From: Certhia americana
Taxonomy: Eukaryota; Chordata; Aves; Passeriformes; Certhiidae
DNA length: 64,000 bases
Direction: 5' to 3'
Assembly: GCA_018697195.1 (NCBI GenBank)
Contig: JAGMWU010000028.1
Coordinates: forward strand, 7,047,277-7,111,276
A program made the translations under genes and the position numbers. Position 1 is the first letter of the stretch; each line of letters starts with the position of its first letter. Shown here piece by piece: positions 6,807 to 49,507 of this stretch. The notes below the pieces were generated by a model, which ran no database searches, was not told the DNA's origin, and saw only the letters and a list, made by a program, of their open reading frames with translations.

Positions 6807-8027
6807 TGTGTTGGTGTGGCACAGCCTGTTTTTGGAGACGGCCATAGGATTAGCTTCTGTGAGAAGCTGCTAGAAGCTTCCACCATGTCTGACTGTCTGA
6901 CAGAGCCAACCTCTGATGGCTCTGAAGATGGACATGCTGCTGACACAATTAGAGAAGTTCTAATTTTAGTACCTCTGTGATGACATATTTAAGAAAATCA
7001 AAACAGTGGAGGAGCAGTTTTTCCCCAGGGATGGGGAGGCACTGCCATGCTGCTGTGGCCTTGCCTGCCTAGCTGCCCCTAGCCAATGGCTGCAGCTGGA
7101 AGGGCAGGAGTGGTGTCTTCCCCTTCCCGCTGCCCTTCATGAGGCAGCCACACTGCCCGTGCAATGGCAGCAGGGACACCTGGCCAGCAACAGAAACAGG
7201 GCAAGTGATTCCCTGACTTGGAATCTAGACGAGATCAACATCCCAAAGCTGCAGCATTTTGCAAGAACTAGTGGGACTTGTTGCCAAGAGTAACTACAAA
7301 CAGCAATTTTTCTTCTAGTCAGAGGAGGAAGTGAGAATATGTGAGAAAAACCAACGTGCCAGCACCAAGGTCGGTGGCAGAGAAGGTGCTCCAAGCATTG
7401 GAGCAAAGATTCCTCTGCAAGCTGTGGTGAGGACCATGGTGAAACAAACTGTCCACAGCGAATAGAGAAGTTCACTTACAGCCCATAAGAAAAGGGGCTC
7501 ACACTGGAGTGGGTGGATGCCAGAGAAAGCTGCAATACAGTTGGGAGACCCAAACAGAGACAGAGGGCCCTTGCTTGCATACTACAGCATGCCCACAGAT
7601 GAGTGATTCACACCACAACTGTTTTGGGAAGACTGTGTTTGCCTGTGGGAGGGACCCCATGGCATAGCAGAGGAAAGACTCCCTGCTGTGAGCAAACAAA
7701 AGATCTCCAGTGACAACTGACCAAAAACCTCCATGCCCTGTCTCCCTGCACTGTCGGTGGGAAAGAGGGAGGGGCTAGGGGAGAAAAAAGGTGGTTTAAA
7801 AGCTTATTTTACTTCTCATTCTCCTCTTCTGACTCTGTTAATAATAAATTTATTTCAATTTGATTTTTAAAAATTTGAACCTATTTTGCCCTTAGTGGTT
7901 CTTTTTTTTTCCTCCTAGTCCTTAACTCAGAAGCCCTTCATTTTTTTCCCTCTCCTCTGCCCAACTGTAGTAGAAGATAAGCAAATTACTTTTGTGCCAG
8001 GTGTTTGGCCAGTGTCAAACCACAACA
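6807..8027 (+). mobile_element. Solo ERVL-type LTR with intact target duplication
   Basis: A 1,221-base solo LTR. It begins TGTGTTGGTG and ends AACCACAACA, giving the TG...CA termini. It is flanked by a perfect 5-bp duplication, AAAGG, at 6802-6806 and 8028-8032; 5 bp is the ERVL-class length. The 5' part ('gagaagctgctagaagcttcc', then 'gatgacatatttaag' near 6979) and the 3' end ('ggccagtgtcaaacca') recall avian ERVL LTRs from memory. An AATAAA-type signal lies near 7842. No internal gag, pol or env is present, so this is a recombined solo LTR. It starts about 67 bases past the UBE2T poly(A) signals. Confidence 0.85.
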
Positions 8028-8032
8028 AAAGG

Positions 8033-8759
8033 AAAACTGGAACCATCACTTTAGCTTTCAATTTCTAACTTTCAGAGACGGGAACAGCACCAAGTAGTTC
8101 AGTTTCTATTTTTATAACTGAGAGCAGGAGCTGACAAGCAGACAGGTCAGAGCCAGCTGGTGGGAATCCTTTCCCAGGAAAGGCTTAGTTTTCCATGAAC
8201 CCTCAAGGGCTAAGTCATTAAACTCAAATCTTACAACTCTGTCTCTCCGGAGCAGTCTGTTAGGTTCCAGCTGGACCATTCAGGATAACCTGGATGGTGT
8301 CTTGGCTCTGTTGTAACTCCAGGAGATGGCCAGTGACAAGAACAAGCTCACAGCAGGTGAGGATGAGCCCAAAGGATTCCCAGGGATCTGGAAGGATGGG
8401 TATGGAAGAGTGAGATGTTAGCAATGTGCTGTGCAGGGTGAAGGGCATGAGAGGATTGGGCTGAGGACAATTCTTGGTGCTTCCACAGATCCAAAGATGA
8501 GGGCTGCCAGCTGATTGCAGTAGGAGCAAGTCAGGTGCTTGGCCTCTTGCTCTGCAGGTTCCCTGCTGGGAATTTACCCCATGTCCTGTCCCTGCTCCCA
8601 GAAAAGCGAGTCAGGCCCATCTGTGGAGCAGAGACAGGATTCAGCAATGTTCCCAGTGCCTGGGAAGCAATGAAGCTCAGTGATGAGCAGATCTCTGCTG
8701 GCTGAGGAAAGGCTGGGTTCTCAGCTGCTCCCAAAGCCCTGGGCGCGTCCTTGTCCTAC
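8033..8759. other. Intergenic, probably includes the tetraspanin 3'UTR
   Basis: No exon was recognised. The part next to 8759 should be the 3'UTR of the minus-strand tetraspanin gene, but I found no canonical AATAAA on that strand here. Confidence 0.4.
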
Positions 8760-11465
8760 TCAGTCGAAGTTGTAGTAAAGGCAGAAGGCGAAGAACATGG
8801 CAAAGATCTGGAATGATGGAGATGGGAGAGGGTCAGCGCAATAGCAGGGCTGGGCCTGGCTGCAGTTAGAAGCAGGGAGGGGCTGGAGGGTCCCTGGCCT
8901 GGGGCCATCGCTGTGCCCCTCAAGGGGCCTGGACAAGCTGTCCGGGTGCTGCACAGGGACACCAGGGTGAGGAGACCCAGAAGGAGTAAAACAAACCCTC
9001 TTTTGTTCCTTCCATCTGCAGTGGAGACCAGGCTCTGTACCCCAAGACAGACCTGAGCTCCTTTGTGCTCTCCTTGCCCACTGAGCAACTCCCCTGCCAT
9101 AAGGAGGGGACACTCTGCCTGCCCTGTCCCCAGCCCCCCTCATTACCTCAATGCCCAGCACGGCCAAGCTGCAGGTCCCAGGGAGGGAGATGTACCTCTG
9201 CAGGGTCCTGCCGAAGGTGGAGAAGCAGCCCTGAGGCAGAGAGAGGAGGGAAGGACTCTCTCATGTTCCCCATGGCCACAGGGAGCCCAGATCGCTTTCC
9301 CTGCCCACAGGTTTAATTTCCTTAGCTGACAAGAGCCGGAGTCTCCCAGCCACCAGTGGCACAATGGTGGATCCTGTTCCCCATCAATCATTCATCGCCT
9401 CGCTGCTGGAAGGGATTTCTTGGGGGCTGCTGGAGTGGGAAAGGGGGGAGGGATTTTCTGACCTTTGTGATGTTATATAGGTGCCGGCAGCACCAGGGAA
9501 GGTTGGAGGTACCTGGGTCGCTCACTATCCCTGCAGGGTGAGTGGTGTGGGGACTAAAGGGAACACAGGATTTAGACAGGGTTGCAGGGGGATGTCAGGG
9601 GTCCCCTGTGGGGCAGGACGAGCTGAGGACTTTGGGACCCACTGGACTGTGGAACTACACTACAGCTAGGAAATATCCTAGGCTTCTAGCCCTTATGCTC
9701 TCCTCCATGAGCCTGGGAAGGGCTGAGGCTGGGACAGGGACACGGACACAGCAGATTTGTGCTGTACCTGCTCATAGATGTAGCCTGGGCTTCTGTCCTG
9801 GCACTGCTCCCAGCCCAGGAGATCTCCCACCTGCAGAAGCCCATCCCGGGCACAGCATGCCCGTGGCCATGGCATCCCTGGGTGCAGCTCCTGGAAGCGG
9901 GAGCCATTCCCAAAGTCTTCAGGTCCTAAAACACCACAACACGAGAACTGGAACAGAAGGGAAACACCATCACCGTGGTCATTGGTGAACCCCATGTGTC
10001 CCTGGGGAGCCTCTCAGCTGCTCACCGTGACCATGAGGGTGTTCCAAGCTGTGGAGAAGACCTCAGCACCCTCATCCCCACCATAGTTCTTCTGCAGCTC
10101 AGACAGGAAGTGCTCAGGCTGGACCTGTGGAATTGGTGCCAGAACTGGGACTATTTCTCTCCCATTCTGCTCAGCCCCAGCTGCTTTTGAGGGGAATTGG
10201 GCACCCAGTGGATCCTCCCCACCTGCTTTGAGGTTTGTGTTATGGTGCTGATGACAGAGACAAGGGGAAGGGTATCCCTACACCAGCCTCAGTCACCTGG
10301 TGGACTCTGAGCCATGGCCATGGTGTGATGTAGGCTGGTGAGACTGGGGATGGTGCCAGTACCTGTTTCCAGTGCACCAGCAAGAGAACGGCCCCAACGA
10401 GCTGCGTGAGGAACACAAGGCTGACAAGGATGAAGAACTGGAAGGCAGCAGGTAAAGGAGTCAGAGACCAGCCTGATCCCACAGGCAGCTTGCTCACATT
10501 ATCCCTGCCCTCCTCTGCACTAGCCCTGCCTGTGCCCTGTGTCCCTGACACTAGGGACATGTGTACAGCTCCTGGGGACATTTGCCACATCTCTGACCAC
10601 TGTGGCTGCAAGGCAGGGTTGAAAATAAGCACTGTCTGCAAGGGACTGGGGATGCTGAAGAAATGGGGGGGTCTTGGTGTTCAAACGGGCGTTTCTGCCA
10701 GCAATGGGGTCATCTTGGAAATGCCATGTGGGACAAGCCAATATATTCAGAGAGAATTGACCATACTGGGTGGCTTTAGATATCCTCTGGGCTCTAAGTT
10801 GAGACTCACAAGGTGGGGAGTGGATGGCAGGACATGTTGATGATACCAACTCCTGGCTCCTCCAAGAATCCCTGCATCTTCCACCACCCCCCAGCCAATG
10901 ACTCCTGCCCCCAGTGCCCCCTGCCCACATCCTGTAGCCCCTTCCCACCCATCTTCCCTCCCTCACCAGCAGTAAGAGCGGGCGGCTCCGGCGCAGGGCC
11001 CCACAGCAACCCAGGAAGCCCAGCAGGGACAGGGCAATGCCCACGGCCAGCAGCAGCCACGCGCCTGCACTCAGCACAGCCCTGGCGGCCACGATGTCCT
11101 GGAAACCGGTGGGGTCCACAACCACCCAGACTCCCATGCCTGCCAGGCATGTCCCCCCAGCCTACAGGGGGAGGTCAGGAGATGATCATGGGCTCAGGGG
11201 CTGTCCAAGCTTTGGTCACCTCCTCAGAAATGAGTGTTACCCACCCCTGAGCTAGATGGAAATGTCACCCCATGTGGATGGGGGATGCTTCAACCCTTGT
11301 ATCCCTCCCTGGGACCGATGTCATCCACCTCTGAGTCAGCTGGAGCTGTTGCTCCCCAGGCACAGGTTCCCTCCACCCCTGCATCCCACAGGGCCCAGGT
11401 GGACTCACAAACACCAGCACGTTGAAGATGAACATCAGGTACTTCATGCAGCTCAAGACACCCAT
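8760..11465 (-). CDS. Tetraspanin, TSPAN18-like, seven coding exons
   Basis: A four-pass membrane organiser. Coding exons in transcript order are 11409-11465, 10967-11161, 10363-10437, 10026-10124, 9768-9947, 9147-9230 and 8760-8807. They total 738 bases, or 245 residues (human TSPAN18 is 248). Every junction is GT-AG and in phase 0. The start [12 protein letters not shown] and the stretch [12 protein letters not shown] resemble TSPAN18. The large extracellular loop has the tetraspanin CCG motif (C145-C146-G147), a second CC pair (173-174), C191 and C204, making six cysteines. There is one sequon, NGS, at N156. The protein ends CLYYNFD. The family is certain; the exact paralogue is inferred, so I leave the symbol blank. 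An upstream acceptor at 11503/11502 joins it to a probable 5'UTR exon near 11881-11912. Confidence 0.93.
9295..9580 (+). repeat. Inverted copy of the tetraspanin promoter/5'UTR-exon module
   Basis: These 286 bases are the reverse complement of 11838-12123 with only two mismatches (at 9553 and 9577) and no indel; paired positions sum to 21418. The copy lies in intron 5 of the tetraspanin gene (between the exons at 9768-9947 and 9147-9230). On the plus strand it carries the same TATA-like element (near 9474-9480) and the same splice donor CAGG|GTGAGT (after 9537). If active it would transcribe antisense across coding exons 5 to 1. It resembles no repeat family I know. Confidence 0.9.
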
Positions 11466-11639
11466 GGTGACACCAGGAGGAGGGACACAGCAGTGTTTGT
11501 CCCTATGGAGGGGAGAGCAGAGCCCTGGCCACAGCCAGCCCTGACTTGTGCTGGACCCCATGGCTCCAGCTGAATGTGGGGCATGCAGTCTCCCAAAATT
11601 CCCAGATCATTTTCTATCCCCCCCCATCTCCCATGACAC

Positions 11640-11855
11640 CCCAAAAAAACCCCAAACCTGTGTCCTCTCCAAATCTGTGTCCTCTCCCAACCACACGTCC
11701 CCTTCAAACCCCATGTCCCCAGTCCTGTGTCCCATCCAAACCCTGTGTCCCCTTCAAATCCCATGTCCCCTCCAAATCTTGTGTCCCCACCAAATCCCAT
11801 GTCCCCTACAAATTCTATGTCCCCTCCAAACACATGTCCTCTCTAAATCCTGTGT
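11640..11855. repeat. Minisatellite, about 18-bp unit
   Basis: About eleven imperfect copies of a unit like 'tgtcccctccaaatccca' in the 5'UTR intron of the tetraspanin gene. The open frames across it are repeat artefacts. Confidence 0.8.
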
Positions 11856-12123
11856 TCCCTTTAGCCCCCACACCACTCACCCTGCAGGGATAGTGAGCGA
11901 CCCAGGTACCTCCAACCTTCCCTGGTGCTGCCGGCACCTATATAACATCACAAAGGTCAGAAAATCCCTCCCCCCTTTCCCACTCCAGCAGCCCCCAAGA
12001 AATCCCTTCCAGCAGCGAGGCGATGAATGATTGATGGGGAACAGGATCCACCATTGTGCCACTGGTGGCTGGGAGACTCCGGCTCTTGTCAGCTAAGGAA
12101 ATTAAACCTGTGGGCAGGGAAAG
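11838..12123 (-). promoter_or_regulatory. Probable tetraspanin promoter and 5'UTR exon (other arm of the inverted repeat)
   Basis: On the minus strand this holds a TATA-like box (plus strand TATATAA at 11939-11945). About 25-30 bases on is a likely start near 11912, followed by the strong donor CAGG|GTGAGT with the exon ending at 11881. The next acceptor, CTCCATAG at 11503, leads to the exon with the start codon. A nuclear-receptor-like half site (TGACCTTTG) lies just upstream of the TATA box. The start site is inferred. The same 286 bases recur inverted at 9295-9580. Confidence 0.6.
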
Positions 12124-12689
12124 ACGAGTCGCCCCACCAGGCCAGGGGTGACCTCGGCCACTGATTATTGCTGTGGCTGTTCGGGGAAGTCCTCACTGGC
12201 CATGCATGGCACCCGTGGGCAGGCAGGGGGTGCTGCAGGGGCTATCGGCTGTTGGGACACAGGGACATCCCAGATGGATGACAGAGTCTGCCGCCTCTTG
12301 TTGCTGACTTTAGGAGCTGTCTAAACACTGAGTCTTGCTAGAAAGGAAACATTATTTATTCTGCACCAGGTACAAAGAGGAAGTTTCCACAAATCAAGCA
12401 CACCGAAGGGTAAAAGGTTAAATACAGTAAAATTTACATGAACCCAGCTATCTAAAGCATATTCTTTGCCTGCTTAATGCATATTTCTTTTGGCGATGTG
12501 ACTTTACTCAATGTTTGAAACACAAAGTGCTTTTCTTCACTAAAGCATCTTCTGTTGGAGAAGTTGAATTACACAGTTACGTTTGCAAAAGGTGAGAGAA
12601 TTCATCCTGGGGGCAGATAATTCAACTTGAAGACGGCGGCAGTGTCACCGCAAGCCCAGGGCCCTCAGGGCTCGGTCCCTGGCGGTGCC
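12124..12689. other. Short divergent intergenic gap
   Basis: Lies between the tetraspanin promoter (leftward) and the ADIPOR1 CpG island (rightward). The AT-rich part at 12340-12610 is unlike its neighbours but matches no family I recognise. No exon seen. Confidence 0.45.
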
Positions 12690-12962
12690 AGCAGGGGTCA
12701 GCCGAGGGCGCAGCCATAGAGCTGCGCGGCAAGAGCAGAGCGCCTTCCGCAGGCACCACAGCTGGACCAATCACAGCGCGCGGCGGCCGCTGGGGCGGGA
12801 GAAAACAGAGACAGACAGTGATTTTAACCAATCATCGAGCGCCCCTTCCGGGGTTGGGGCCCGTGGGGGCGTGGCCTCGAGGCCGGAAGCGGTGCTGTGC
12901 GTTCCCGTTCCCTTAGCGTTGCTTCCGGTGGCGCCGCCGCCGTCCGCGGGATGTAGCGGCCG
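12690..12962 (+). promoter_or_regulatory. ADIPOR1: ADIPOR1 CpG-island promoter and non-coding exon 1
   Basis: A CpG-dense block with CCAAT boxes near 12764 and 12827 and ETS-type CTTCCGG/CCGGAAG sites near 12883 and 12921. A GCCG|GTGAGG donor at 12962/12963 would end a non-coding first exon, joining the exon that starts at 13063. The start site is inferred. Confidence 0.65.
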
Positions 12963-13130
12963 GTGAGGGACGGGCGGGGCAGCGGGGTCTCCGAGCGGGG
13001 CTGCTGCTTCGCTACCGCTGGTCCCCTCAGTCCCGATAGCTCTGTGCTTCTTTCCTCTCCAGAGCGGCGGCAGAAGGACGCGAAGGGACCTTCACCGGCT
13101 GCCTCGGAACCGCACGCACCCGTCGTCCCG

Positions 13131-16100
13131 ATGGCCTCCCGCAAGGCCCCCGCCGGGGCGGGCAGCGGGCTGGCGGCCGCCGGCCGGGAGCGGGAGCGGG
13201 AGCGGGAACGGGCGCACCTGGAGCTCGCCGAGCTGGGGCCGCTCCTAGAGGAGAAAGGGGACCAAGGACCCACCGGCGCGGCCAGCGTGAGCCTCTCCGA
13301 CACCCTCGGGCGGGAGGGCAGCCAGAGCCTGGCTAAGTCTCCTCGCTCCGTCCCCGCGGATTATCCCGGGAATCTGCCCGTTATCCCATTAACAGCTAGA
13401 GGAATAGGGCTCCGTGTCGTTCCTCGGGCCGGTCCGTGTTCCGAGCCGGCCCAAACTCTGGTCCTGCCGAGCAGGCATGGAGCCGGGATAGTCCTTCGCG
13501 GGGATGTCACCGGGATTGCTGTGTCTGTGCCGGGTGTTCCCAGGGTGTTTCCAGTGTCCCAGCATTTCCACAGGGCAGGGAATCACCTTCCCGAAGCCCT
13601 TCCCGGCTGAGCAGAGCGGGAGCTGTGCCGGGACCTAGAGCGTTCCCAGTTCGGAGCTACCTCTGCTCCAGTGGGCTGGCTCGGGTCTCCTGGCGGGGCC
13701 GAGCGGCCGTTGCAGCCTTGGTTGTAGGGATGAAAATCCCTGGTGATAATCCCATTTTTCGACACGATAAATCTGGGATTAGCCTGCCCAGGATGGGTCA
13801 GGCAGCAGCGTGTTGCATAAACGAGAGTGAGCAGCGGGTCCTGCCCGTCCCCTCAGAGGGATGAAGCCCCAGGTGCTCTCAGTAGGGCAGGGATGATTCC
13901 TCTTCTGGGGTCTGGAATGATTCCCTCCTGGCTCTTCTCCCTTCAGGCCGAGGACCCACCGTGCCCAGCAGCCCGTGAGGAGGAGGAGGAGGTGGTGCGG
14001 GTGCTGACCCTGCCCCTGCAGGCTCACCATGCCATGGAGAAGATGGAAGAGTTCGTGTACAAGGTACCGGAGCCTGTGGCAATCCCCTAGTCTTGATTTT
14101 GGAACAGAGTCCCTCAGTCCCTGGGTTTGTGGTGACAAGATGTGTCTGGATAAAGCCTCATGTGGCCGCAGCTGCCTCCAGCTCTGCTGGGCTGCTCCCA
14201 GCTGCATCCTCAGGAATGGTGTGGGAAGGGGATGGCTGGGATGAGGGTTGACCCAGCCATGGTGGGTGAGGACATGGGAGCAATCCTGGTGTTCTGCAGG
14301 CCTGGGTGGGGCCCGGGAGCCCAAGTGTTGGCTGGAGTGTCACCTGGTGCCTGCAGTCACTGTGGCTGATCAAACAGGAATTCCCACCACAGGGAACAGT
14401 CTGTGGGTGTGGAAGGGTTAAAGCTGAGGATGTTAAATGCCCCTGACTCCCTGAGTGGCCCTGAAATCACTGCCTTGGGAGGCTGAGACTCAATCCTTGT
14501 GGGAGCTGAAGTGGGGGTAAATTCTCTCCCTGCAGGGGCTGGGAATCACTCTCTGGCGAGTTAAGGGGAGCAGAGTGCAGGATGTGGGTGGGTGGTTTAC
14601 AGGGTCCAACAGGACACCTGGTGTCGAGAAACCAAACTTCCTCTCCCTGAGGAGCATCCCAGGGCTGGGCAGTTCCTGTGGATTTAGGGCTCTGGGCTGC
14701 CCTGATCCCCCTGGTGTGTTGCAGGTGTGGGAAGGACGCTGGCGTGTGATCCCATATGACGTCCTGCCTGACTGGCTCAAGGACAACGATTACCTCCTGC
14801 ATGGACACCGGCCCCCCATGCCCTCCTTCCGTGCCTGCTTCCGGAGCATCTTCCGGATACACACTGAGACAGGCAACATCTGGACACACCTGCTGGGTGA
14901 CTGTGGGGAATGGGGGAGCCCTGGGGCTGGAGGGGCTCAGACCTTGTATTAGGGTCAGAACTGTGGCTGGGTTAGGGTTAGTGCATTAGGCTTGGTGCTG
15001 GGTCCTCTCCGTGCCCGGGGCTCCCTGTGTGGATCCTGTGCATGCAGGAGGATCAGATATGGAGTGCCTGGAGCTCCTGGAGCCCTTGGGAGAGAGGGAC
15101 CAGGGCTGGGCTCAGCCCACTGCAGGAGTAGGACAGGAAAATGTGTCCTGGGCAAAACAGGGAAACCTCAAGAGGATGTTCCTCTGAAATGAGTCCAGAG
15201 GAGGCCACAGAGATGCTCTGAGGGCTAGAGCTCTTCTGCTCTGGAGCCAGTCTGGGAATGCTGGGAATACTTAGCCTGGAGAAGAGAAGGCTCCAGGGAG
15301 ACCTTAGAGGCCCTTCTGCTTCCTAAAGGGGCTCCAAGAGAGCTGAAAAGGGACCTTGGACAAGGGCTGGGAGTCACAGGACAAGGTGGAATGGCTTCCC
15401 AGTGCCAGAGGGCAGAGTTAGATGGGATAGTGGAAGAAATTCTTCCTTGTGAGGGAGGTGAGGCCTTGGCCCAGGTTGCCCAGAGAAGCTGTGGATACCC
15501 CATACCTGGCAGTGTCCAAGGCCAGGTTGGCTGGGGCTTGGAGAAACCTGGGCTCGTGGAAGGTGTTCCCTACCTATGGGAGAGGGTGGAACGTGGGTGA
15601 GTTTTAATGTCCCTTCCCACCTAAACTAGCCTGTGATTCCATGACCCTGTGAAACAGCAGTTTTTTGCCCTGTACTTGCCCCTTCCCCTGTCCTCAGCCC
15701 TTCTCATTTGCATTAACAAAGATCTCAGTCAAGGACCCGTTGTGGGTTACTGATCACCCCTGGGATACATCCAGGACCTCCCAGAGGATGGCCAGGGCTG
15801 TTCTTCTCCTGGCTTTGCTGAACTCCCACAGTGTCCCCTCTAACTTCCCTCTCCATGTGTTCCTGCAGGGTTTGTTCTGTTCCTTTGCTTGGGAATCCTG
15901 ACCATGCTGCGGCCCAACATGTACTTTATGGCTCCTCTGCAAGAGAAGGTGGTGTTTGGGATGTTCTTCTTGGGAGCAGTGCTGTGCCTCAGCTTCTCCT
16001 GGCTTTTCCACACTGTCTACTGTCACTCAGAGAAGGTTTCGCGGACTTTTTCAAAGTGAGTCAGCATGAGTGTGGTTGTGTGGTCCGCTGGGAGGTTTTG

Positions 16101-19074
16101 GGTTCTTGCAGCACTTTCTCTTGGAAAGCACTGTGTTCCCAAATGTTTTATCCCTGGGGGAAGGGAGCGTCCACCCAATCCAGTGTGGAACTGAGGGGAA
16201 CCACAACAGGGTTCTGGAGGGTTCTGCCTGGGCATCTTAAATGTGCCAGGTCAGAGGTCTCAGGTGCATGATAAAGGTCCTGGGACCCTGCAGATCCCAA
16301 GGGAGCAGGATCCTGGCTCCCAAGGGAACAGGCTCTGTGCCTCTCATAGCAGTGAGTTGAGGAGGGGTCTCGCTCTCGCTGGGCAGCTGGGGACCATGGC
16401 CAGTTTGGCAGGTCCCAGTTTACTGGATGCTTTTAAAAATCTCTGTTTTGGATCCAGTTTGGACTGAAACCAAATGGAAAGAAGGAACACAAACAGGATT
16501 CCCAGCAGAGTTGGAAGGCTGGTCAGTGGTTTGTGCCTCTTCCTGGGCTGCTCCAAGAGTCAAGCTCCAGTCAGCCTTCACAGTGAGGCCCTCAAGTGAC
16601 ATTCTGTTCCCACATGGCTGTTAAAGGCATTTATTTGGATGGTGCTTGCTGGGAATCCTGCCCATTCCCTTTCCACAACCCCCAGCAATCCCATGGGATC
16701 CTGTCTCCAGAACAAATTCAGCAGGAGTGCCCTTGTGTTCCTGGGAGGGCAATGGGGGCAGTGCAGGGGCTATGTTTCAGTGGTAAGATGAGTGGAGGAT
16801 CACAGATCCATGTGCACAGGGATTGCAAACCCTGTGGTTTGAGCTCCATCCTCTTGCCCCATTCCAGCATTCCCACTGTGCCCAGGCCCTTTCTCATGTC
16901 ACACCTGCCCTAATGGGACCCTAGCACACCCCTCCTGCCCAGTGACTCCACTCAGGTGCAGGCTGGAGAGTTCCCACACATGGAGGGGGTGGATTTTGGG
17001 GCTCACCTGTGACTCTCTGTCATTGCACCCTGTCTGCAGGTTGGATTATTCAGGAATTGCACTGCTGATCATGGGGAGCTTCGTCCCATGGCTCTACTAC
17101 TCGTTCTACTGCTCTCCACAGCCAAGACTCATCTACCTCTCCATCGTCTGTGTCTTGGGTATCTCTGCCATCATTGTGGCACAGTGGGACCGATTTGCCA
17201 CCCCCAAGCACAGGCAGACCAGAGCAGGTAGGAGCCCCATCCTCCCCCAAGTCCTGGGAGGCACTTCAAGCAAATCCCATCTGGGAGAAACTCTGGGCAC
17301 CTGCAGGATTCTTTCCCCCCAAGCCAATGAGCACTGCAGGGAGTGGCCTCCTGCCTTCCCTTGCTGTGCTGGGGATTCATGTCCTGAGTAGAACCTGAAG
17401 TTTGGAGTTTAAAAATAACCCTGGCTGGGCTGGGGCTGTGCCTTTTCTGCCTTCTCCGGGAAGCAGTTCAGAAGCAGGAGCCTACAGCTGGGGCGGAGGA
17501 GGAAGGCATTCCTGAGCTCCTCCCTGCCAGGGACATGCTGGCTGGTCCTTGCCTTCCTGGGGGTGGAGTGGGGGGCTGCATCCAGCCCCACGCCCCAGTT
17601 TACCCCCATGGTAGGTCAGCCTCATTGAGCACCAGGAGATCCCTCCCTCCCCAACTCCCAGTGGCCTGAAGCAAATGTCTTTCAGAGCACTGTCCTGGCT
17701 ACCTGAGTGAGGGAAGACCATGCTGAGACAGAGTTCACCTGAGAGCCCTCAGATGAGGCAGGGGACAGGCAGGATTCACATCTCCATGGCTCCTCCCCAC
17801 TGCATCCTGTGCCCCCAACATGAACAGGATCCAGCCGGGCGTCACCCAGAGCCTTTCCAGGCCAGTGTCACCATGGTGCCACTTGTTCTCTGCCAGAGTT
17901 CAGAACTCTGTTCTCGGAGGCCAGAGTTGAACATTTCAGCTGCTACTGAGCTCCTTCCTCAGGATCTGCAAGAAATCACTTTCCTGGAAGGAGTGGCCGT
18001 GTTCCTGGTGTGATCCAAAGGGCTGGCACCTTCCAAACTGTCCATTACCGTAGCCAGGAGCAGGAGCTGTTGCAGCCCTGCATAAAAAACACTGTGTGGG
18101 TTCTACCCAGCAAGCACAGGGGCAGTTTGCCTGGGATGTGGAGCTGTGGATCCCTCATTTTGTGAAGGCTAAGTGCCATGAGGATTGGAGAAATTTAAGG
18201 AGTGTTTGGACAACACTTTCAGGCACAGGGTGGGATTGTTTGGGTGGGATTGTTTGGGGGTCTTCTGTGCAGGCCAAGAGTTGGATACAATTATCCTTAT
18301 GGGTCCTTTCCAGCTCGAAATATTCTATGAGTTCAGTGAAGAAAAGGTGCTTCCCTAGCACAGGATGAGGGATCCAGGGGATTTGGTGGGAGGAACAGTT
18401 CCACCTCCACACTGACCTCTTTTCCCTGACCTCTTCTTTGGGCCACAGGCGTGTTCCTGGGGCTGGGACTGAGCGGGGTTGTGCCCACCATGCACTTCAC
18501 CATTGCTGAGGGCTTTGTGAAGGCCACCACGGTGGGGCAGATGGGCTGGTTCTTCCTCATGGCTGTGATGTATATCACGGGTGCTGGGCTCTACGCTGCC
18601 CGCATCCCTGAGCGGTTCTTCCCGGGCAAGTTCGACATCTGGGTGAGTGTGGGGGTGAACAGGTTGTCTGGGGCCAGCTCTGGGGTCAGGGGAGAGGGCA
18701 TTGAGGGGCTGGAGGCTGGAAGTGTCTGGCTGTGCTTCAGCACATGCTGGCAGGCAGACCTTCAATGGGTTCTGTGTGTTGGCAGGGCAGGGCAAAGTAC
18801 AGGGTGGGAATTGCTGCTGGGTGCAACAGAGTGGGGAACAGAGGACAGAGGAAAGTCCTGGAGCAGCAAGGAAGAAGAGGAGGAGGTGTTGACAGTGTTG
18901 TTGTCCCCTTTGGTCTGCTCTAAAGGTTTTTTTGCTTCCCTGCAGTTCCAGTCTCATCAGATCTTCCATGTGTTGGTGGTGGCTGCAGCCTTTGTCCACT
19001 TCTATGGGGTGTCCAACCTGCAGGAATTCCGCTACGGCCTGGAAGGGGGGTGCACAGACGACTCTCTCCTCTGA
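13131..19074 (+). CDS. ADIPOR1: Adiponectin receptor 1, seven coding exons
   Basis: A seven-helix PAQR membrane protein of inverted topology with zinc-dependent ceramidase-like activity; it signals to AMPK and PPAR. Coding exons are 13131-13286, 13947-14063, 14725-14896, 15869-16055, 17040-17227, 18449-18642 and 18946-19074. They total 1,143 bases, or 380 residues (human 375). The exon with the ATG begins at 13063. From about residue 85 the protein nearly equals human ADIPOR1. Zinc ligands are intact: H196 (WLFH), D213 (KLDY), and H342 and H346 (SHQIFH). The N-terminal cytoplasmic tail is diverged and contains an RERERERER run. It ends EGGCTDDSLL. It is tail-to-tail with TIMM17A. Confidence 0.97.
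15185..15652 (+). mobile_element. CR1 LINE 3' fragment
   Basis: About 470 bases of CR1 3' end in ADIPOR1 intron 3 (between the exons ending 14896 and starting 15869). It runs from 'gaggccacagagatgctctgag' through the full set of conserved blocks to a degenerate ATTCCATGACC tail. Confidence 0.85.
18178..18335 (+). mobile_element. CR1 LINE 3' tail, other subfamily
   Basis: Ends with 'gggtcctttccagctcgaaat' followed by ATTCTATGAG. It lies in the ADIPOR1 intron before the exon at 18449. Confidence 0.65.
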
Positions 19075-36370: not shown

Positions 36371-36721
36371 TTGCCTTTAAAAGGCGAAATGCTTCGGACT
36401 AAATTTGGTCATGTAGCTCTGCATGGTTCCCTGGAATGTCCTCGGGTTTCAGGCTCCTCTGATAGCACCATTCCCCGCCTCCCGCCGGGCTCCATTGGCT
36501 TCCCAGCGCCGGAACCGCCACTGGATTCTGTTATTGGCCAACTCTTGGATCGAGGGGTGTCCTCTCCGGATAACCACCGTATCCCGGGCTGGAGAGCTGC
36601 TGAGGTTTAACACTTCAGCACCTGCTGCCGCTCAGGAAGCAGCTTTGGAGCTTCAGCTTCTTTTTTTTCCTCCTGCTTTGGGTACCACACAACCGCCACC
36701 GTGTCTCGCCAGCGAGCCAAG
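36371..36721 (+). promoter_or_regulatory. LMOD1: LMOD1 promoter with CArG-like and TEAD-like sites, and 5'UTR
   Basis: Two adjacent CArG-like elements, each one mismatch from the SRF consensus: CTTTAAAAGG at 36375-36384 and CTAAATTTGG at 36399-36408. A TEAD/MCAT motif, TGGAATG, is at 36432-36438. Inverted or direct CCAAT elements lie near 36493 and 36533. LMOD1 is a known SRF/myocardin target in smooth muscle, so this cluster fits its regulation. The exact start site is not visible. Confidence 0.55.
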
Positions 36722-39700
36722 ATGTCCAAAGTGGCCAAATACAGGCGACAAGTTAGTGAAGATCCAGATATAGACAATTTATTGTCTACTTTGTCTCCAG
36801 AGGAGATGGAGGAGTTGGAAAAGGAGCTAGATGTGGTGGATGCGGACGGAAGCATCCCTGGGGAGCGCAGTCAGACAAACCAATCAGGAAACTCCTCACC
36901 TGGCCCACAAAACTGTGACACGGCGCTCCACCACCACGAGAAAGACACCAGGAGACTCCTGCAGCGGGAGCACTCGATAGACGTAAGTTACATCCCCCGC
37001 TGCTGCTGCGGGAAAGGTGGGAACACACCTCAAACCCCTCCCCGCCCCCCCGGGCTGAGTGAGGGAATAGCTGCCCCGGAGAGACCAGGGAGCTGGTCCA
37101 GGCACACCGGAGGGAAACAGGGTGTCCCATAAAATCCCGGCGTTACTAGCAAAGCCAAAACCTGTGCTGGTGCCAGGGATTTTCTCCCTCCCCCTGCTCT
37201 AACATCCCTGGGCAGGGCTGGGAGCGGAGCTGGGATTCCCAGGAGGCTGCTGAAGGGGCCGGTGCAGTGAAAGCGATCCCACGGGCTGTATTTTTCTTTT
37301 TTTTTTTTTTCCTCTCCTCCTTTGGCGATCTCTGGACTCTTGATCCTTTCAGTTACTCTTATGCATACATTTATCTCCCACTCTGCACCTGGAAAATCCT
37401 CTACAAGTTTTCTTGGAGCTCGAGAGCTTCATGTCGGTCCTTTCTCTTTTTGTACTGTGCCTTAGAGGGAGCCAGTCCTACTTTTCTGTAATATTTGTTA
37501 ACCTCAACCCTAAGAACATTTGGTATGTGCTTTGTGCGTGGAAGCCTGGGAAGTATCTGTTTTCCCCAGTTTTTCAGGCTGAGCCAGAAAATGAAAGACA
37601 GCGACTCCAGCAGTTGATCCATGTGGTCGTGGACTGGTTTCATGTCGCAGGCGGGATTCGCATCTGCTGTGCCGGGGCAGGGCTTGTGAGTGTTGGCAGC
37701 ACAAGCAGAGCCAAGTATTATGTGGCTACCCCTCTGCTCTGGCTCTAATTCCAGATCTATTCCAGGTCACCCAGCTGTACCCTGGGTCTTCCAGCTGGGT
37801 AATCAATCTGTAACTACGCCAGAGTGCTTGGAAATTTCTCTTTCTGGATATTTATGGAGTTTATATAGCAGGGTCCTCTCCTGACTGTGGCCTAGGCACC
37901 CTTATTCCCTTCTAAATATTGGGAGGAGTGGGAATGAAAATTGCACCTGTAGGAGAAATAACTGAAGGTTGCTTTTGGAGAGCTGAACAGGGGTTAAATT
38001 GTTCCTCTCCACCCATGTCGTGCGCAGCCTGGAAGCTCTCTCTGGCTCTGAGGATAAGGAACAGCTTTCACCTTCTATATGTGGTGCCTGGCATGGGCTG
38101 GGGGACAGTGAGCGCCGTGCCCCTCAACACAAGGGCTCTGTCTTGATTTCTTTACCAATGGAAAATTTCCCTGTGGTGGGGAAGTGCAGGCACTGCAGGA
38201 CAAACCTGCCTGGAGAGGGAAATGCTTGTATGCTTTTACCAGTCACAGAAAACAGTGACCACTGTTTTTCAGGTGATCCCAAGAGGTAACACAAAAATCT
38301 GCTTTTTCAGATGGGGGGACATTTGGATTTGCAAGCACTTGTGTTGCTGTTTCAGTATTAACATGAGAGGTTAACTGAGAATTGGCATAGGGAAGTGTCC
38401 ATGACCAGGAGGAAGGGAAGAAATTTGTGAGTTTTGTTAAAAAGAGACCTGTGAAAGTGCCTGGTTAAACATAATGTTGTTCGGAAATGCCTGAGAATGT
38501 GTGTGCAGTGGGAGAGGACTTGGGATGTGGAAAGGGATGGCCCAGGGAGGAGAGACACCTGGGAGAGGGTGTAGGGCTCTGGCTGGAGGAGAAGGCAGCA
38601 CAGGGGTCCTGGAAAAGCTCCTGCTTCTTTCTGAGTTCAGGAGCTTCAGGCTGTGGAAGACAAAACAAATTTGCAACAGGTCAAGTTTGTCAGTGAAAGT
38701 GGCCTAGTTTGATTGCATTGCAGTAACTGGATAGGGCAGAACTGACTTTCTTCTATTTCAATCCCTGGAGGCCAAAAAACCAAGTATATCCTACACCCCT
38801 TCCTCCCTGCCATTGTTAGGATCTGGGATTAGCACTTAGAAAATGCCAGCTTGCACATCAGATTGTGCTGATGGAAGAGTAGGGCTGTGCTCTGTCATGG
38901 GGCCCAAGGATAGGATGGGATGGGATGGGATGGGACGGGACGGGATGGGACGGGACGGGACGGGACGGGACAGGACGGGACGGGACGGGACGGGATGGGG
39001 TAGGGTGGGATGGGGTAGGGTGGGGTGGGGTGGGGTGGGATCATCAGACCACAGGAACAGTTACAAAAACCGTGCAGGAAGCTGATGGTCCCTTCTGTCT
39101 GAGGAAGCCCCAGGGTTCTGTTTTGCTGCAGGTTGGAATGAGAACATGGAGCCATCCAGAGCGCCCCAGGCAGATGCTGAGCTCTCCCCCAGCTGCTCAG
39201 AGCTCTGAGGTCTCTAATGACAAATCCCTGTCATGTGTCAGCAGATTTCATGCTGTGCCAGCCAGCACAGGCATGGTGGCTGAACTCCCACAGGGTTGGC
39301 ATTCCCCCAGGTTGTGCAGGCATCATCCCATACATGTCCATCCCAGCCCTTCTCCATCAACAGCTCCTAGTATTTTGAAGCAAATCCAGAAGAGGTCACA
39401 GAGATGCTCTGAGGGCTGGACCTCCTCTGATCTGGAGACAGACTGGGAAAGCTGTGGGTGTCCAGCCTGGAGAAGAGAAGGCTCCAAGGAGATCTCCTGA
39501 AGAGACACCACAGACACAGGATAACATCTTCCAGATGTTCACAAGTAATTCCTACTGGAATTACTCCCATTCCTTCCCTGACTTTGTGCCTGTGTTTCTC
39601 CCCTGCCTCCCACCCCCTGCCCAGCTCACACATCTGCTTCTGGCTTGGAAAAGTTTCTCTCGATGCCTTAAATTAGGAATGCCAGGCACTGTGTCTGTGA

Positions 39701-42700
39701 TGTCTCTTCAGTAGGGAGGGACAGGAGGGCAGATTCTTGTCCTTGAACTACAGGGAGTTTGTCCGTGGTTAATGGAATCATGGAATGGTTTGGGTGGGAA
39801 GGGATCTTAAAAATCATCCCATTTGACCTCTGCCATGGGCAGGGACACTTTCCACTGTCCCAGGGTGCTCCANNNNNNNNNNACCTCTGCCATGGGCAGG
39901 GACACTTTCCACTGTCCCAGGGTGCTCCAAGCCCCATCCAACCTGGCCTTGGACACTTCCAGAGATGAGGCAGACGCAGATTCATGAGCAACCTGTAGCA
40001 GGGCCTCCCCACCTCACAGCCAAAAATTCCTTCCACTATCCCATCTAACCCTGCCCTCTGGCACTGGGAAGCCATTGCCCCTTGTCTGATTCTCCAGGCT
40101 CTTGTCCCAAGTCCCTCTCCAGCTCTCCTGGAGCCCCTTTAGGCACTGCAAGGGGCTCTGAGATCTCCCTAGAGCCTTCTCTTCCCCAGGCTGGATACCT
40201 CCAGCTCTCCCAGCTCATCTCCAGATCAGAGGGGCTCCATCCCTCAGAGTATCTCTGTGGCTTCCTCTGGACTCACTCCAGAAGTTCCATGTCCTTCTCA
40301 TCTTGGGGACCTTCTGGCTTCCCCCCTTCAGCCAAGTCCTCCTTGAACTCCAATGGGGTACTCCTCCCTGAAGCCAGCACAGAGCTGCTCATGCTCCCAA
40401 GAGTCCATCGTCACATCTTGTTCTTTGGCTAAGCCAAGCACATCCTGCCGTGGTGGGACCATGTAGGACAGGACATATCTCTGAAAATAACTGCAGGCTG
40501 GGGAAAGCTGTCCCCTTCCAAAGACTAAACTTCTGCAAACATATTTCCATATGTCCCCTCTGCCAGGGACTGATGTAACAGCAGCTGCTGGGCCACCAAG
40601 TGCATCTTCCCTCATCTTGGGTACAGGATTTGTGAATCCCTGAGTAACACCTCTCCCCTCCCCTCCCCTCCCCATTCCCCTTTCCCTTGGAAATCTGCTC
40701 CAGGCACAGCAGGGTGACTGTGCCCACATTCTGCCTGTTGATCAAACAGCGAGATCAATAACTACCATTAAACCAGCCGTATTCTACTCCAAGATGAGCT
40801 GTGAGGCTTTCAGAGCAGGAAGTGAGACCCCCTCACTCATCCTCCAGATTCACTCTCCCCAGCCCCAGCTCTATCCCCAGCCCCATCCCTTGCTCAGCGC
40901 TGGAGCGAGTGCTTGGATTCCAGGCAAGAAGTTCCCAGTCTCCTTTGCCTTTTAAGGCAACATCTGAGTGGGTTTGAGGGTTACAAATGCTAACAAGCCA
41001 TGGCAATGCTCATTTTAGTCTATTTAGAGGAAACGGGAAGGCATTTCAGTTCATCAAAACACTGGTGATTAATCAACCGCCTACCAAGCTGTTTTCATTA
41101 GGCTTATTTTTAAAGGTCTGACATGCTGTGTAAAAATATTCCCCTAATAAATGTGCTTGTGGCAGAGGGAAGGGCACAGAAGGGTACTTGGAAACCAGCA
41201 GCACTGGTTTCCAGGTACCCAAGGTAAATATGCCAGTGGGCATAGAGGAGTGAGCAGGCAGATCTCAGGATGGCCATGAAGAGGGGACATCTAGCCCTAG
41301 GCTGCAGGAGAAGCTGTGCTGGTGGCCACAGGGGCAGCCAGGGGTTCCAGAGCAGGGGAAAGGTGCTTTTGTCTCTACTCCACCCCTCCCACATAGTTCT
41401 GCCACCAAGCTCCTGTTCCAGCTGCACTTCCATCCTAGAGGTAAGGACTTTGGCATTGTCACCAGTGGTGGGTTGGTTACACCTGAGGCTGACACCTGCA
41501 GCATGGCCTGGGCCAGAGGAACACACTGAGAGCCCTGGGATGGTGGAAAGGCAGGAGGAGACAAGGACATGTTCCCTCCTGGGCACATATGCAGGGCCCA
41601 GAGCAGACCTGCTTTGGAGATGTCCCCAGACCTCAGCAAGGGATGGAGATGGGCCACAGTAACCCTTGCTTTTAGAAACACAGATCTGGTATCTTGCCTG
41701 AACTTTCTTCCTCCTGATTCCTCCTGCTCTGCGGCCACTGGAGCTGGGCACTTGCCAAGGACTCTCCCAAGGCAGCTCTGCAGGAGATGAAGCAGCTTGA
41801 ACCCCTCTCATCCCCTGAAACCATCCAGCACTTCTTCCAGGAACCTGCAGCTCTGAGATGGGATCCTTCTGGTACATCCCAAATTTGCTGGGTGCAAATG
41901 ACCCCACAAGTGCTACCCACAGTGGCAGAAACACCTGTGATGGTAACTGCATATCTGTTGCATTCCCTTGCTCCCATGCCTGGGGCCACAACTGGCTCCT
42001 TTTCCCCCAGCTTCTTTTCCCCAACTTCTCCCAGCTCTCTTTCTCCTGATTTTCCTGCACCTCTTTTCCCACATCCTATTCTTTGGCTCCAGGTTTCTCC
42101 TCCCCCAAACCTGCCCCACACTGCATGACGTGGCCACACAGCCACGGATGAAAGCTTTAACCAGATGACAGGACATTCCCGGCATGTGTTACAGCAGCTT
42201 TCCCAAGCAGGGATTGCCATGGATTTAATTTTCCTCTAGTTTCATTTGCTTGGAGTATACCATCACCTTCTCCAAGCATGGGAGAGGTTGCTGGTCATCC
42301 TTACCAGGGCTTTTCTCCCTTTCTCCAAGGTCTGTTTATCCCTGGCTCTTTGCTCTTCTTGGTCTTGGATGTGCCCAGGGTGCTCAGGGGAGATTCAGAG
42401 CTCCCCAGTGTTAGGCTGGGTGAGCTTGGGTTGGGAAGAAGAAAGATTTTTGGAGTAGTTGGTGTGGAGATGAGGCTGTTGGCTCTGACTCAAGGGGTGC
42501 TCAGCCTGTGGTCACAGATGGTCACAGAGCACTGAGGAGGATAAATATCCCGTCTCACAGGAACCTGCAACCTGGGCACTCCCAAATACCTTGGAGGCCC
42601 TTTTGGGTACCAGCAGAGGAACACCAGTGTCCTCATCCCACAGTCCTCCTGTCAGGCCTCTTCCTCCACCAAGGTGCTTCAGGATGTCACTGAGCATGTG

Positions 42701-45700
42701 TGTATCCTGGAGCTGGGAACAGGCCACAGCTTGGTGAGAAGGACCCCTGGCTCAGTGCCAGAGGAGGTGGCATCACCTGCTCCCTGCAGCACCCAGGGCT
42801 GGGTGCCCTTCTGGGAACCCCATCGCTGGTCCCTGGGGTGGCAGTAGTGGGGGATGTGTGAACGCCAGGCTAGGCTCTGTAGGGGTCTGGCATGAGCTTT
42901 CCTGTCCCTGTTCGGCCTTGTGTCAGGGAGCCAAGAAATCTCTTAACTAAATAAACAGCGCTCTTGTCCCCAGTGGCATCTGTTTATACACCAGGTACAA
43001 ACAGTCCCCAGGACTGCCCATGCCCAGCCAGTTCTTTTCACAAAAATCTGTCCCTGAGGGCTGGCATGGAGAAAGCTCAGCCTCATGCTGCCCCAGCATG
43101 GACACTGCAGAGCCCCAGGATAAAGAGGAGGAGGCCAGCCTGATTGCAGACTGGGGTGTCAGGATTCAGATTTGGGGGTTCCAGGCACTGGGTGAAGCCA
43201 CAGTGTTGTCCTAATTATGAGTGAGTCCAGGAAGATTGTAAAGGCATCACAGCTGCATCTCCCAGAGGCATCTTCCTTCCTCCTTTCCTTGGAGTCCTAA
43301 AATCCCCCCAGCAAAGATGATGAGCCAGGCCAGTGGTGACCTGTGTGTTCCTTAGCTGTGGAGGAGGAAATTGCAAATTTAAATAAATTTCATTTAAATT
43401 GCCAAACCTTGATGTGAAGTTTATGGTAGGATCCTCCACTGTGCAGCCAGCTTGGTCCCAATGTCAAGTTCATCTGCCTTTAGCCACCTGAAGCATTGGC
43501 TCCTCTCCCTTGGGAATGAATGTGTTCCATGTCATGGATTCTCAAACTAGTTTGGGTTGGAAGGAACCTTAAAGCTCATCCTACTCCAATCCCTGCCATG
43601 TGCAGGGACAGCTTTCACTAGCCCAGGTTGCTCCAAGCTCTGTCCAGCCTGGCCTTTGACATTTCCAGGGATGGGGCAGCCACAGCTTCTCTGGGCAACT
43701 GTGCCAGGGCCTCAGCACACTCACAGGGAGAAATTTCTTCCCAATATCCCACCTAACTGTGCACTCTGGCAGTTTAGAGGGAAGGATGGGAACCATATAA
43801 AAGGTTGTACCAATGCTGATGGAGACCCCTTCAGCCAGCTCCTCAGCCTTGGCTGAAGGCTACAATGAGGTATTGTCTGTGTCCCCAAGCTGCTGGAGCT
43901 GGTTGTGGCCAGCAGCAATGCCCAGGACAGGCTGTACCAAGGGCAAAGGTTGGGAGCTTGTAAAAATGACCAGAACTTCCTTCTGACCTTCCCCCAGCCT
44001 CTCCATTAAGCCCTTCCCTCTTATGATGTCATTCAACACTGTGAGCAGAAGTGTGGGGAGAACTTTGTGCATTAGAAAGCAGTAAACGCCATGCTCCCAT
44101 TTCCTTGGCTTTCTGATCAAAAGTGCAACCTGCTGCTGAAAAGAGAATGGTTTTGCAGAGCACAGGGTTGGAGTGACTGCTGGGTAAGCAGTGTCACTGG
44201 GGACACTGCTGTGGGCACTCCCCTGCTTGCACACACATCCAGGACAGTGTGGAGAGTGCTGGGCTACCGACTGTGGAAAGCCACCAAGTATCCATCTGGA
44301 AACCACTTAGGAAAGGTAGGAAGGCACCCGGGACTCACAGGGAGACAAGCACTACCTCCATCCCTAATTAGAAAAATTATTAAAAAATGATAACTTTTAG
44401 GGTTGTATGAGAGAAGGTGCCTCCTATAGCTTGTTAGTTTGTGGCCTGTTAGGAAGGGTTCTAGAGACCTCCAAAGCCCATTGGGAGGGCACTGGGGGCA
44501 GAAAGAGAGCAGAGCTGCCTTGGAGAGCTGCTGCAGGATCTCATTACACCTGGGTCCTGCAGGCTCTACCTACATTCAAGGCACTCAGATGCTGAACCCT
44601 TCCCTGGAGCTGGGACCTCGGCTGGGCCAAACATTCCTCTTCCAAAGGCCAGCCACAGGCTGCAAGATGTTCCCATGTGACAGAGGTTGGTGGCAGTGAG
44701 ACTGGGGTGGCAAGTCTATAGGTGAGAGACACCTACTTCTGTAATTCCCAGGTGTTTTTCTCTCACTAGGAAAGCAGGTTGAACAAGAATAAGGGAGACA
44801 AAAATCAAGAAGAAAAAGGAAAGGAATCTCCTTCCAAAGACCTGGACCAGAAACGAGATACTAAAGTGGGGAAAGACTTTAAAAAGGAAGAAAATGTTCA
44901 GAAAACAGACCCAAAAGGTAAAGCTGAGACTGAGATCAAGAGCAAAGAGAACAAAGCTATGAACGATAAAGTCAAGGCCATGGAGAAAAAGCTGATGGGG
45001 AAGGACAAGAAGGAGGAAGAGAAGGGTTCAGTGTTGAAGAAGGATGCAGGGAAGGACAAAAAGGAGGAAGAGAAGAGCTCAGAGTTGAAGAAGGATGCAG
45101 GGAAGGATAAAAAGGAGGAAGAGAACAGCTCATCTTTTAAAAAGGATGCAGGGAAAGATAAAAATGAAGAGGTCTCAGCAGCAAAGGAGGAGACAGAGAA
45201 GGAAAAAAAGCAAGAAGAAAAAGATTCAGCATCAAAGGACACAGAGAAGGACATAAAGGAGGAGACAAGTTCTGAATCAAAGAAACAGGCAGTAAAGGAT
45301 GTAAGAGGGGACAGTAAGAAAGAAAATGATAAAAAGGAAGAGGAAAAGCCTTCAGCTGTGAAAAAATCTAAGGCATATGAGAAGGATAAATCTCAGGCAG
45401 AAGCAGAAAAGGCAGAAAAAGTGGAGGAGAAACAGGAGGCCAAGGCAGGAGATGGGAGCAGCCCTTCCAAGCCTTCCTCCAGCAGCTCCGCAGATCAAGC
45501 CAAGGACGATGAAGCCTCCAGCATCTTTGATGAGCTCATTGAAAAGGTGAAGAACAACGATGCTGAGGTGACTGAGGTCAATGTGAACAACTCCGACTGC
45601 ATCAACAATGAGACCCTGGTGCGCTTCACTGAGGCCCTGGAGTTCAACACTGTGGTCAAGATGTTCGCCCTGGCTAATACCCGCGCGGATGACCACGTGG

Positions 45701-48539: not shown

Positions 48540-48835
48540 CAACATGGATGTCCCATAACCCTTGCAAATGGGACACCCAAACCTCCTCCAAATGGGGACC
48601 CTGCTGCTTCTGGACGCAGACAACTAGGCACCCAGAGCCATGCAGACACCCCAAAACTCTGGAGCCACCCAGAATTGGGCATCCTGGGGCTGCCCCAGTG
48701 TCACCCCGAACCCCAAGGTAATCCAGAACTGGGTGCCTCAGGGTCACCCTAAAACCCCGGGGTGACCCCGAAACTGGGCACCCCAACCCCCAGGGTCGCC
48801 CCAGGGTCACCCCAAAGCCCCGGGGTCACCCAGAA
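48540..48835. repeat. C-rich degenerate minisatellite
   Basis: Imperfect repeats of the type 'cagggtcaccccaaaacccc' between LMOD1 and the next CpG island. Confidence 0.65.
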
Positions 48836-48839
48836 TTAC

Positions 48840-49507
48840 TCTCCCCCCTGGCACCATGGGGCCGGGGCCGTTTTGGGGGAGCAGTAGCACCCGGGTGTCC
48901 CCTGAGAGGTTCCCCCTGTCCCGGGACACCCACTGAGAGGCGGCTCCCGGAACCAGTGAAACGCCGTCTTGGGAGCCATTTCTGCAGCCGCGCAGTGCCG
49001 TGGCCCCAGCGGGAGGAGCTGTACCGGTACCGGGGGGTCCTTACGCCCCTCACCCCCGCACTCCTGCCCCATGGGGCGGCCCCTGCTAACGCGGGACCCA
49101 ACCGGGCACCGCGGGGCCATAGAGACATCCTACACCGAGCATCCGGCCGGCCTCGGGGTCAGAGCATCACGGTGCACGGGCGGTGTCACCTAAAACCACG
49201 GGACGGGGGGCGGACCGGGGCAGTGCGGCTCCCGGGGGGGGGGGTGTGGGGTGGGCCGGCAGGGGGCGCCGTTAACGCACCGGGGCCGCCGTTAACGAAC
49301 CGGGGCGGAGCGGCGAGCGGCGGGGCCAGTAGGGGGCGCGGTGGAGGCTCGGCCCGCCCGGTCCCGGTAGCGACAGCGCCCGACGGGGGCTCTCGGGGGT
49401 GTCTGGCTCCGCTTCCCCCTTTCGGTCCCGGGGAACCGGCGCAGGGCACACGGCGACGGCGATGGACGGCGGGGCGGCGGCATGAGGCGGCGGCGGCGGC
49501 GGGGAGC
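48840..49507 (+). promoter_or_regulatory. CpG-island promoter of the Myb/SANT-like gene
   Basis: A very GC- and CpG-rich block continuous with the first exon of the downstream gene. No TATA box seen. The reading frame stays open upstream of the chosen start for 184 codons, which may only reflect the base composition. Confidence 0.6.

Follow-up and report, generated by a model that had tools for sequence, protein, structure and literature searches.

The DNA analysed here, referred to as the window, is a stretch of 64,000 nucleotides from the Certhia americana assembly (contig JAGMWU010000028.1, positions 7,047,277 to 7,111,276). It contains a tetraspanin-18-like gene on the minus strand (8760–11502), whose 245-aa product was assigned to the Pfam family Tetraspanin and, among the best 120 of 188 proteins in the protein search, shares 95% identity with the Passer domesticus protein tetraspanin-18-like. 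The gene comprises seven coding exons separated by GT-AG introns: exon 1 (11502–11409), which carries the ATG at 11465, exon 2 (11161–10967), exon 3 (10437–10363), exon 4 (10124–10026), exon 5 (9947–9768), exon 6 (9230–9147) and exon 7 (8807–8760). Intron 5 (9231–9767, minus strand) measures 537 bp including the insertion described below and 257 bp without it (537 minus 280). Upstream of the coding exons, a 5' exon ends at 11881 and is followed by the intron 1 splice donor GTGAGT (11875–11880, minus strand), recognized from the letters and from an eagle peptide; a candidate TATATA box, identified by motif only, lies at 11939–11944 on the same strand. Intron 1 holds a minisatellite with an 18/36-bp unit (11652–11860, detected by TRF), whose gene strand is rich in G. 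When an unspliced bird open reading frame (ORF), P0121, is aligned with the locus, a large part of intron 1 falls in a gap, which may reflect an expansion of the minisatellite in this lineage.

Four of the 17 window ORFs submitted matched Pfam families. Exons of an adiponectin receptor 1-like (ADIPOR1-like) gene, assigned by an HlyIII domain in two ORFs and by ADIPOR1 as the best PDB match, lie at 16843–19071 on the plus strand, head to head with the tetraspanin gene; a GC-rich stretch (~12.75–13.5 kb) separates the two. Further along the plus strand are an ORF with a tropomodulin domain (36611–37129) and, downstream of it, a Lys/Glu-rich open frame of 567 aa (44770–46470) with no Pfam match, within which a 51-bp (17-codon) tandem repeat occupies 44998–45372. 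Together these two resemble leiomodin. Another plus-strand open frame (48722–50326) encodes a Myb/SANT-like DNA-binding domain (PF13873). The window yielded no tRNA and no Rfam family above threshold.

Two segments of the tetraspanin locus, 9295–9580 in intron 5 and 11838–12123 around the 5' exon, had been singled out from the letters as a near-perfect inverted repeat, and direct sequence comparison confirms it. Each arm is 286 bp long, and the two are ungapped reverse complements with two mismatches (9553, A/G; 9577, C/G), separated by a spacer of 2,257 bp. At 99% identity this is the longest inverted repeat of the window, the 24 others shown (of 35 in all) having 75–90% identity. A search of the whole assembly (1,067,471,879 bases), which skips very common words, matched the arm at two places, both of them these arms; within the window, blastn (word size 7, query 9255–9640) returned no further copy beyond three weak matches of 23–32 bp. 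An exact 26-base pattern from the arm had no match among viral or prokaryotic sequences, which is no surprise for DNA of a bird. Outside the arms the flanks showed no homology to each other: 149 of 500 shuffles scored as high for the outer flanks and 486 of 500 for the inner ones, and 162 of 500 did so when the inner flank was compared with the whole minisatellite array.

In 260 kb around the window (scaffold C28, 7,217,684 bp), these arms are the only repeats, direct or inverted, that reach both 100 bp and 93% identity; this survey, which contains 19,554 N, is our sole base rate for such repeat pairs. A 10-N gap falls within the window at 39873–39882, where the same 47 bp are repeated in both flanks, the mark of an unresolved graph join. 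Two more occur at C28:7152784 (15 bp overlap) and C28:7174341 (44 bp, a TG repeat), and a run of 14,378 N (C28:7111277–7125654) begins directly after the window end. The 47-bp overlap hints at Supernova (k = 48) as a possible assembler, which the literature consulted did not confirm.

The ancestry of the right arm was examined with the best 120 of 188 listed proteins, compared by tblastn with window positions 8000–14000; the 60 best rows overlapping intron 5 or the region upstream of the ATG were considered. Among these 120 proteins, two predicted proteins of the white-tailed eagle, P0007 and P0078, match the arm with E values of 5e-11 and 6e-11. Their N-termini align with it at 77% over 30 residues and then at 54% up to the splice donor, from which the peptides run on into the coding exon. 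The same stretch is matched by hoatzin P0077 (70% over 30 residues, E 7e-9) and, weakly, by pheasant P0033 (E 0.001). Peptides of this kind match both of the near-identical arms, and the discriminator is their continuation into the coding start of the gene. A search with the eagle N-terminus returned three proteins from four candidates: two were the eagle queries and the third, the most telling case, was P0121. Its single alignment starts in the right arm, crosses intron 1 and ends in the first coding exon (12054–11392, 102 bits, E 2e-29), compared with 57 bits at the left arm. Because the eagle peptides and P0121 continue from the arm into the coding start, we regard the right arm as ancestral: judged by these alignments, it represents the original 5' region of the tetraspanin-18-like gene together with its first exon. 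The donor proper (11844–12123, minus strand) comprises the promoter-proximal region, the 5' exon, the splice donor and the first 37 bp of intron 1.

The sequence-only reading had seen in the right arm a probable TATA box and the donor of a 5' untranslated exon. The part concerning the 5' region and first exon stands, since the eagle proteins reach the matching splice donor and then the coding exon; the TATA-like box remains a motif and may not mark the sole start, as the eagle peptide begins upstream of it. Two further indications were set aside. The hoatzin peptide, considered as evidence on where the right arm ends on its outer side, was indecisive: it scores 45.4 bits at the right arm and 45.8 bits at the left arm, where the match slightly overruns the arm edge. 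The minisatellite, of which the right arm includes 23 bp, was considered as a proof of polarity, but 45 of 500 shuffles score as high; this test being weak, the polarity rests on the cross-species evidence.

For the left arm, we took out the arm, translated segments of the remaining intron 5 and searched them together with exon 6, which returned 31 proteins from 273 candidates. Six of the 31 are unspliced bird ORFs that extend upstream of exon 6 (P0122–P0127). Five of these six (P0122–P0126) read from intron 5 or exon 5 into exon 6 with no space for a 280-bp arm; the upstream part of P0127 is too diverged to place the arm as present or absent. When the arm is removed from the window sequence, P0122 forms one alignment of 218 bits instead of a split one of 120 + 110 bits, P0123 reaches 166 bits as against 127 + 55, and P0126 reaches 182 bits as against 158 + 91. 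Removal gains little for the other three (P0124, 249 vs 245 bits; P0125, 156 + 143 vs 156 + 140; P0127, 94 vs 86); in P0124 and P0125 the two halves of the alignment abut with zero spare residues between them. Compared with the reconstructed empty site, P0123 agrees at 68 of 72 degenerate positions when one C is added and at 57 of 72 without it, where about 32 are expected per placement. The same test, run ungapped, gives 61–67 of 102–111 positions for P0122 and P0124–P0126 (50–54 expected per placement), low scores that arise because small indels break the register.

These comparisons indicate that the left arm (inserted copy, 9295–9574) is a derived copy inside intron 5, carrying the donor's gene-sense orientation on the plus strand and thus facing opposite to its host gene. 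They bear out the earlier description of it as the same module turned around within intron 5; at the orthologous intron of other birds, it is absent from five of the six ORFs that reach upstream of exon 6. The ORF method is blind to birds that carry the arm, which has stops in all three sense frames; what it demonstrates is the derived state of the arm and not the extent of its distribution.

P0123 also places the edges of the insertion. It reads TGY AAY CCN GTN CCN TTY TGG; the corresponding letters of the window are TGC AAC CCT GTC, followed by the insert and then by CG ATC TGG. With the boundary 9574/9575 taken from P0123 alone, the comparison indicates a copied tract of 280 bp (9295–9574, from donor 11844–12123) with one true mismatch between the copies. 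The next six bases (9575–9580, minus strand) would then be old intron sequence, CCTGTC on the gene strand, which agrees with the donor's CCTCTC at five of six positions and forms an imperfect microhomology at junction 1. Since 9575–9580 is old intron, the difference at 9577 was inherited and is not a mutation, and the sole change since copying is that at 9553. At least five of six bases match in 0.83% of random pairs, and the last two bases match exactly in 7.7%. Junction 2 has no microhomology (0 bases). The insertion cost about 1 bp of target and is flanked by no target-site duplication, and no direct repeat longer than 5 bp occurs near the ends of the arm or of the block 9295–12123.

We interpret the left arm as a recent germline inverted templated insertion produced by replicative template switching of the MMBIR/FoSTeS type, a reading to which we assign a probability of roughly three in four (0.76). 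The source of the insert, of which it is the reverse complement, lies nearby and is still in place, and template switching is favored because the copy is inverted, its donor has been kept, the range is short, there is no target duplication, the junctions are blunt or microhomeologous, and the copy is single. Points against it are the lack of microhomology at junction 2 and the three of six ORF comparisons in which removal of the arm gained little. Under such a scheme, intron 5 would have been undergoing replication or repair when a growing 3' end, terminating in CCTGTC on the gene strand, jumped to the opposite strand ~2.27 kb away and landed at CCTCTC on the edge of the intron 1 minisatellite. 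There 280 bases of the gene's own promoter and first-exon region would have been copied before the strand returned to its original template about 1 bp further along. We infer both the polymerase switch itself and the presence of the insertion in the germline. The G-rich minisatellite at the start of the donor may have favored the switch.

The age of the event can be approximated from the single change in 280 bp. At the rate of 2.0e-9 per base per year given for the zebra finch in the source consulted (PMC12047795), this corresponds to ~0.9 My (interval 0.02–5), assuming neutrality and no conversion. The identity of about 99% between the arms had originally been put down to a very recent duplication, to gene conversion or to an assembly error; the first of these agrees with our results, whereas the absence of the left arm from five of six bird ORFs speaks against the second, and the third is less likely than had been allowed, with junctions that share only 2 and 0 exact bases.

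An artefact is nonetheless the alternative that fares best, although we consider it unlikely: the left arm could have entered intron 5 during short-read assembly or gap filling, or through chimeric amplification. The 10-N gaps, of which the 260 kb contain three (flank overlaps 47, 15 and 44 bp), do indicate that a graph assembler left some joins unresolved, and the stretch that is identical in both arms (9295–9552, 258 bp) is longer than a usual short read. Against this, neither junction of the left arm contains N, the sequences flanking the two arms are dissimilar, and the exact bases shared at the junctions contrast with the 47-bp overlap at the assembly's unresolved join. Mis-joins in an assembly graph arise at a word common to both sides; the left-arm junctions have at most two exact bases in common and do not look like the assembly gaps. 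A mis-join would also have no use for the microhomology at junction 1, and the arms differ by one internal mismatch, although a heterozygous site could also give one. A library chimera is possible in principle as the source of the left arm.

That the left arm is instead old, and that the two arms were kept alike by gene conversion, is very improbable. The high arm identity would fit, as conversion is described as homogenizing inverted arms elsewhere, in the Y palindromes; the absence of the arm from five of six bird ORFs means, however, that its origin does not reach back as far as those birds, and the identity stops sharply at the insertion junctions. We give slightly less credence still to a mobile element, be it the arm itself or the whole block 9295–12123 carrying exons between 286-bp terminal inverted repeats. 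Inverted arms around a segment do recall foldback or Pack-type elements. Such a block would contain most of an old, conserved gene at its ancestral place, and the five spanning bird ORFs are without the left arm only; with just two genome matches and neither a target duplication nor a direct repeat of more than 5 bp near the ends, the arm is not a dispersed transposon, in keeping with the earlier remark that it recalls no familiar transposon family. Retro-insertion of a transcript from the 5' region, which would account for the 5' exon within the copied tract, is scarcely credible, given that the tract extends beyond the TATA-like box on its upstream side and retains 37 bp of intron 1 in unspliced form. 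Poly-A is present at neither end, a target duplication is lacking, and the source is a mere 2.3 kb away.

Returning to template switching, we compared the insertion with events of this kind in other systems. Osia et al. 2021 report 103 and 99 germline insertions of at least 25 bp in two people and, for their lung tumor set, microhomology of 2–12 bp at 80% of junctions, rising to 95% when one mismatch or gap is allowed ("microhomeology"; PMC8421209). The Certhia insertion resembles the MMB-TI described there (templated insertions linked to microhomology-mediated break-induced replication) in being an inverted copy of a nearby template, with the donor retained and with probable germline occurrence. 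It differs in scale: by that account the search for MMB-TI covered templates no farther than 100 bp from the insertion, with read length as the size limit, whereas here 280 bp came from ~2.27 kb away. With 2,269 bp between the insert end (9574) and the donor start (11844), it is therefore not an MMB-TI in the narrow 100-bp sense. The short-range template switches reported for great apes by Walker et al. 2021, 65% of which lengthen the sequence, likewise copy the reverse complement of a nearby template, but the copied length in that set has a median of 12 and a maximum of 128 (PMC7954356), compared with 280 bp here. The MMBIR model as outlined by Hastings et al. 2009 includes microhomology of 2–5 bp, inverted duplications and a second inverted switch that restores the chromosome (PMC2621351). 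An inverted duplication and, in our reading, a return switch also characterize our case, in which five of six bases match at one junction and none at the other; that model, however, addresses copy number variation with switches mostly of tens to hundreds of kb, unlike the one small intragenic tract seen here. In our reading, the insertion is an unusually large member of a known mutation class. Among the titles listed in our literature search, none concerned this gene pair or an intronic inverted copy of a promoter, and we make no wider claim.

The possible consequences follow from what was copied. The insert carries a TATA-like box (9474–9479), the first exon with its end at 9537, and the counterpart of the splice donor (GTGAGT, 9538–9543), all oriented along the plus strand toward coding exon 5 and the exons beyond it, up to exon 1. 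That the left arm acts as an antisense promoter, as proposed from the letters, is possible. Modeling predicts RNA pairing within the sense pre-mRNA: with an assumed start at ~11911, 68 nt of the 5' exon and intron 1 are predicted to pair completely with the left arm at −148 kcal/mol, compared with a mean of −51.6 and a lowest value of −61.9 for 50 mononucleotide shuffles of the arm. The pre-mRNA would probably form a duplex between its 5' end and intron 1 on one side and intron 5 on the other, bracketing coding exons 1–5, and this predicted duplex is a more direct consequence than an antisense promoter would be. In worms, reverse complementary matches flanking exons promote back-splicing and exon skipping in the cases described by Cao 2021 (PMC8330042). 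As there, complementary sequences flanking exons can pair in the pre-mRNA; the worm introns were tested by mutagenesis, whereas the duplex considered here is a prediction and lies partly in the 5' exon.

Near-neutrality is the most likely state of the insertion, which is probably for the most part neutral intron filler, its antisense promoter and splice donor being dormant or weak. We see only a small chance that the flipped module is functional, either by base-pairing to the 5' end of the pre-mRNA that contains it or by firing antisense, and in either way reshaping tetraspanin output. If it were, the outcome could be a circular RNA of coding exons 1–5, a masked first splice site or antisense silencing, and the locus would represent a self-antisense regulatory switch born in one step, by a single template switch.

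Irrespective of function, the locus offers a bird inverted templated insertion that is polarized and roughly dated, and large, at 280 bp over a range of 2.3 kb. Its polarity illustrates that unspliced ORFs in protein collections can be used as evidence for an empty site without the genome of a relative. The tetraspanin-18-like gene illustrates how a whole promoter region and first exon can end up in antisense within their own gene, apparently by one event, with consequences that can be tested by RNA-seq.
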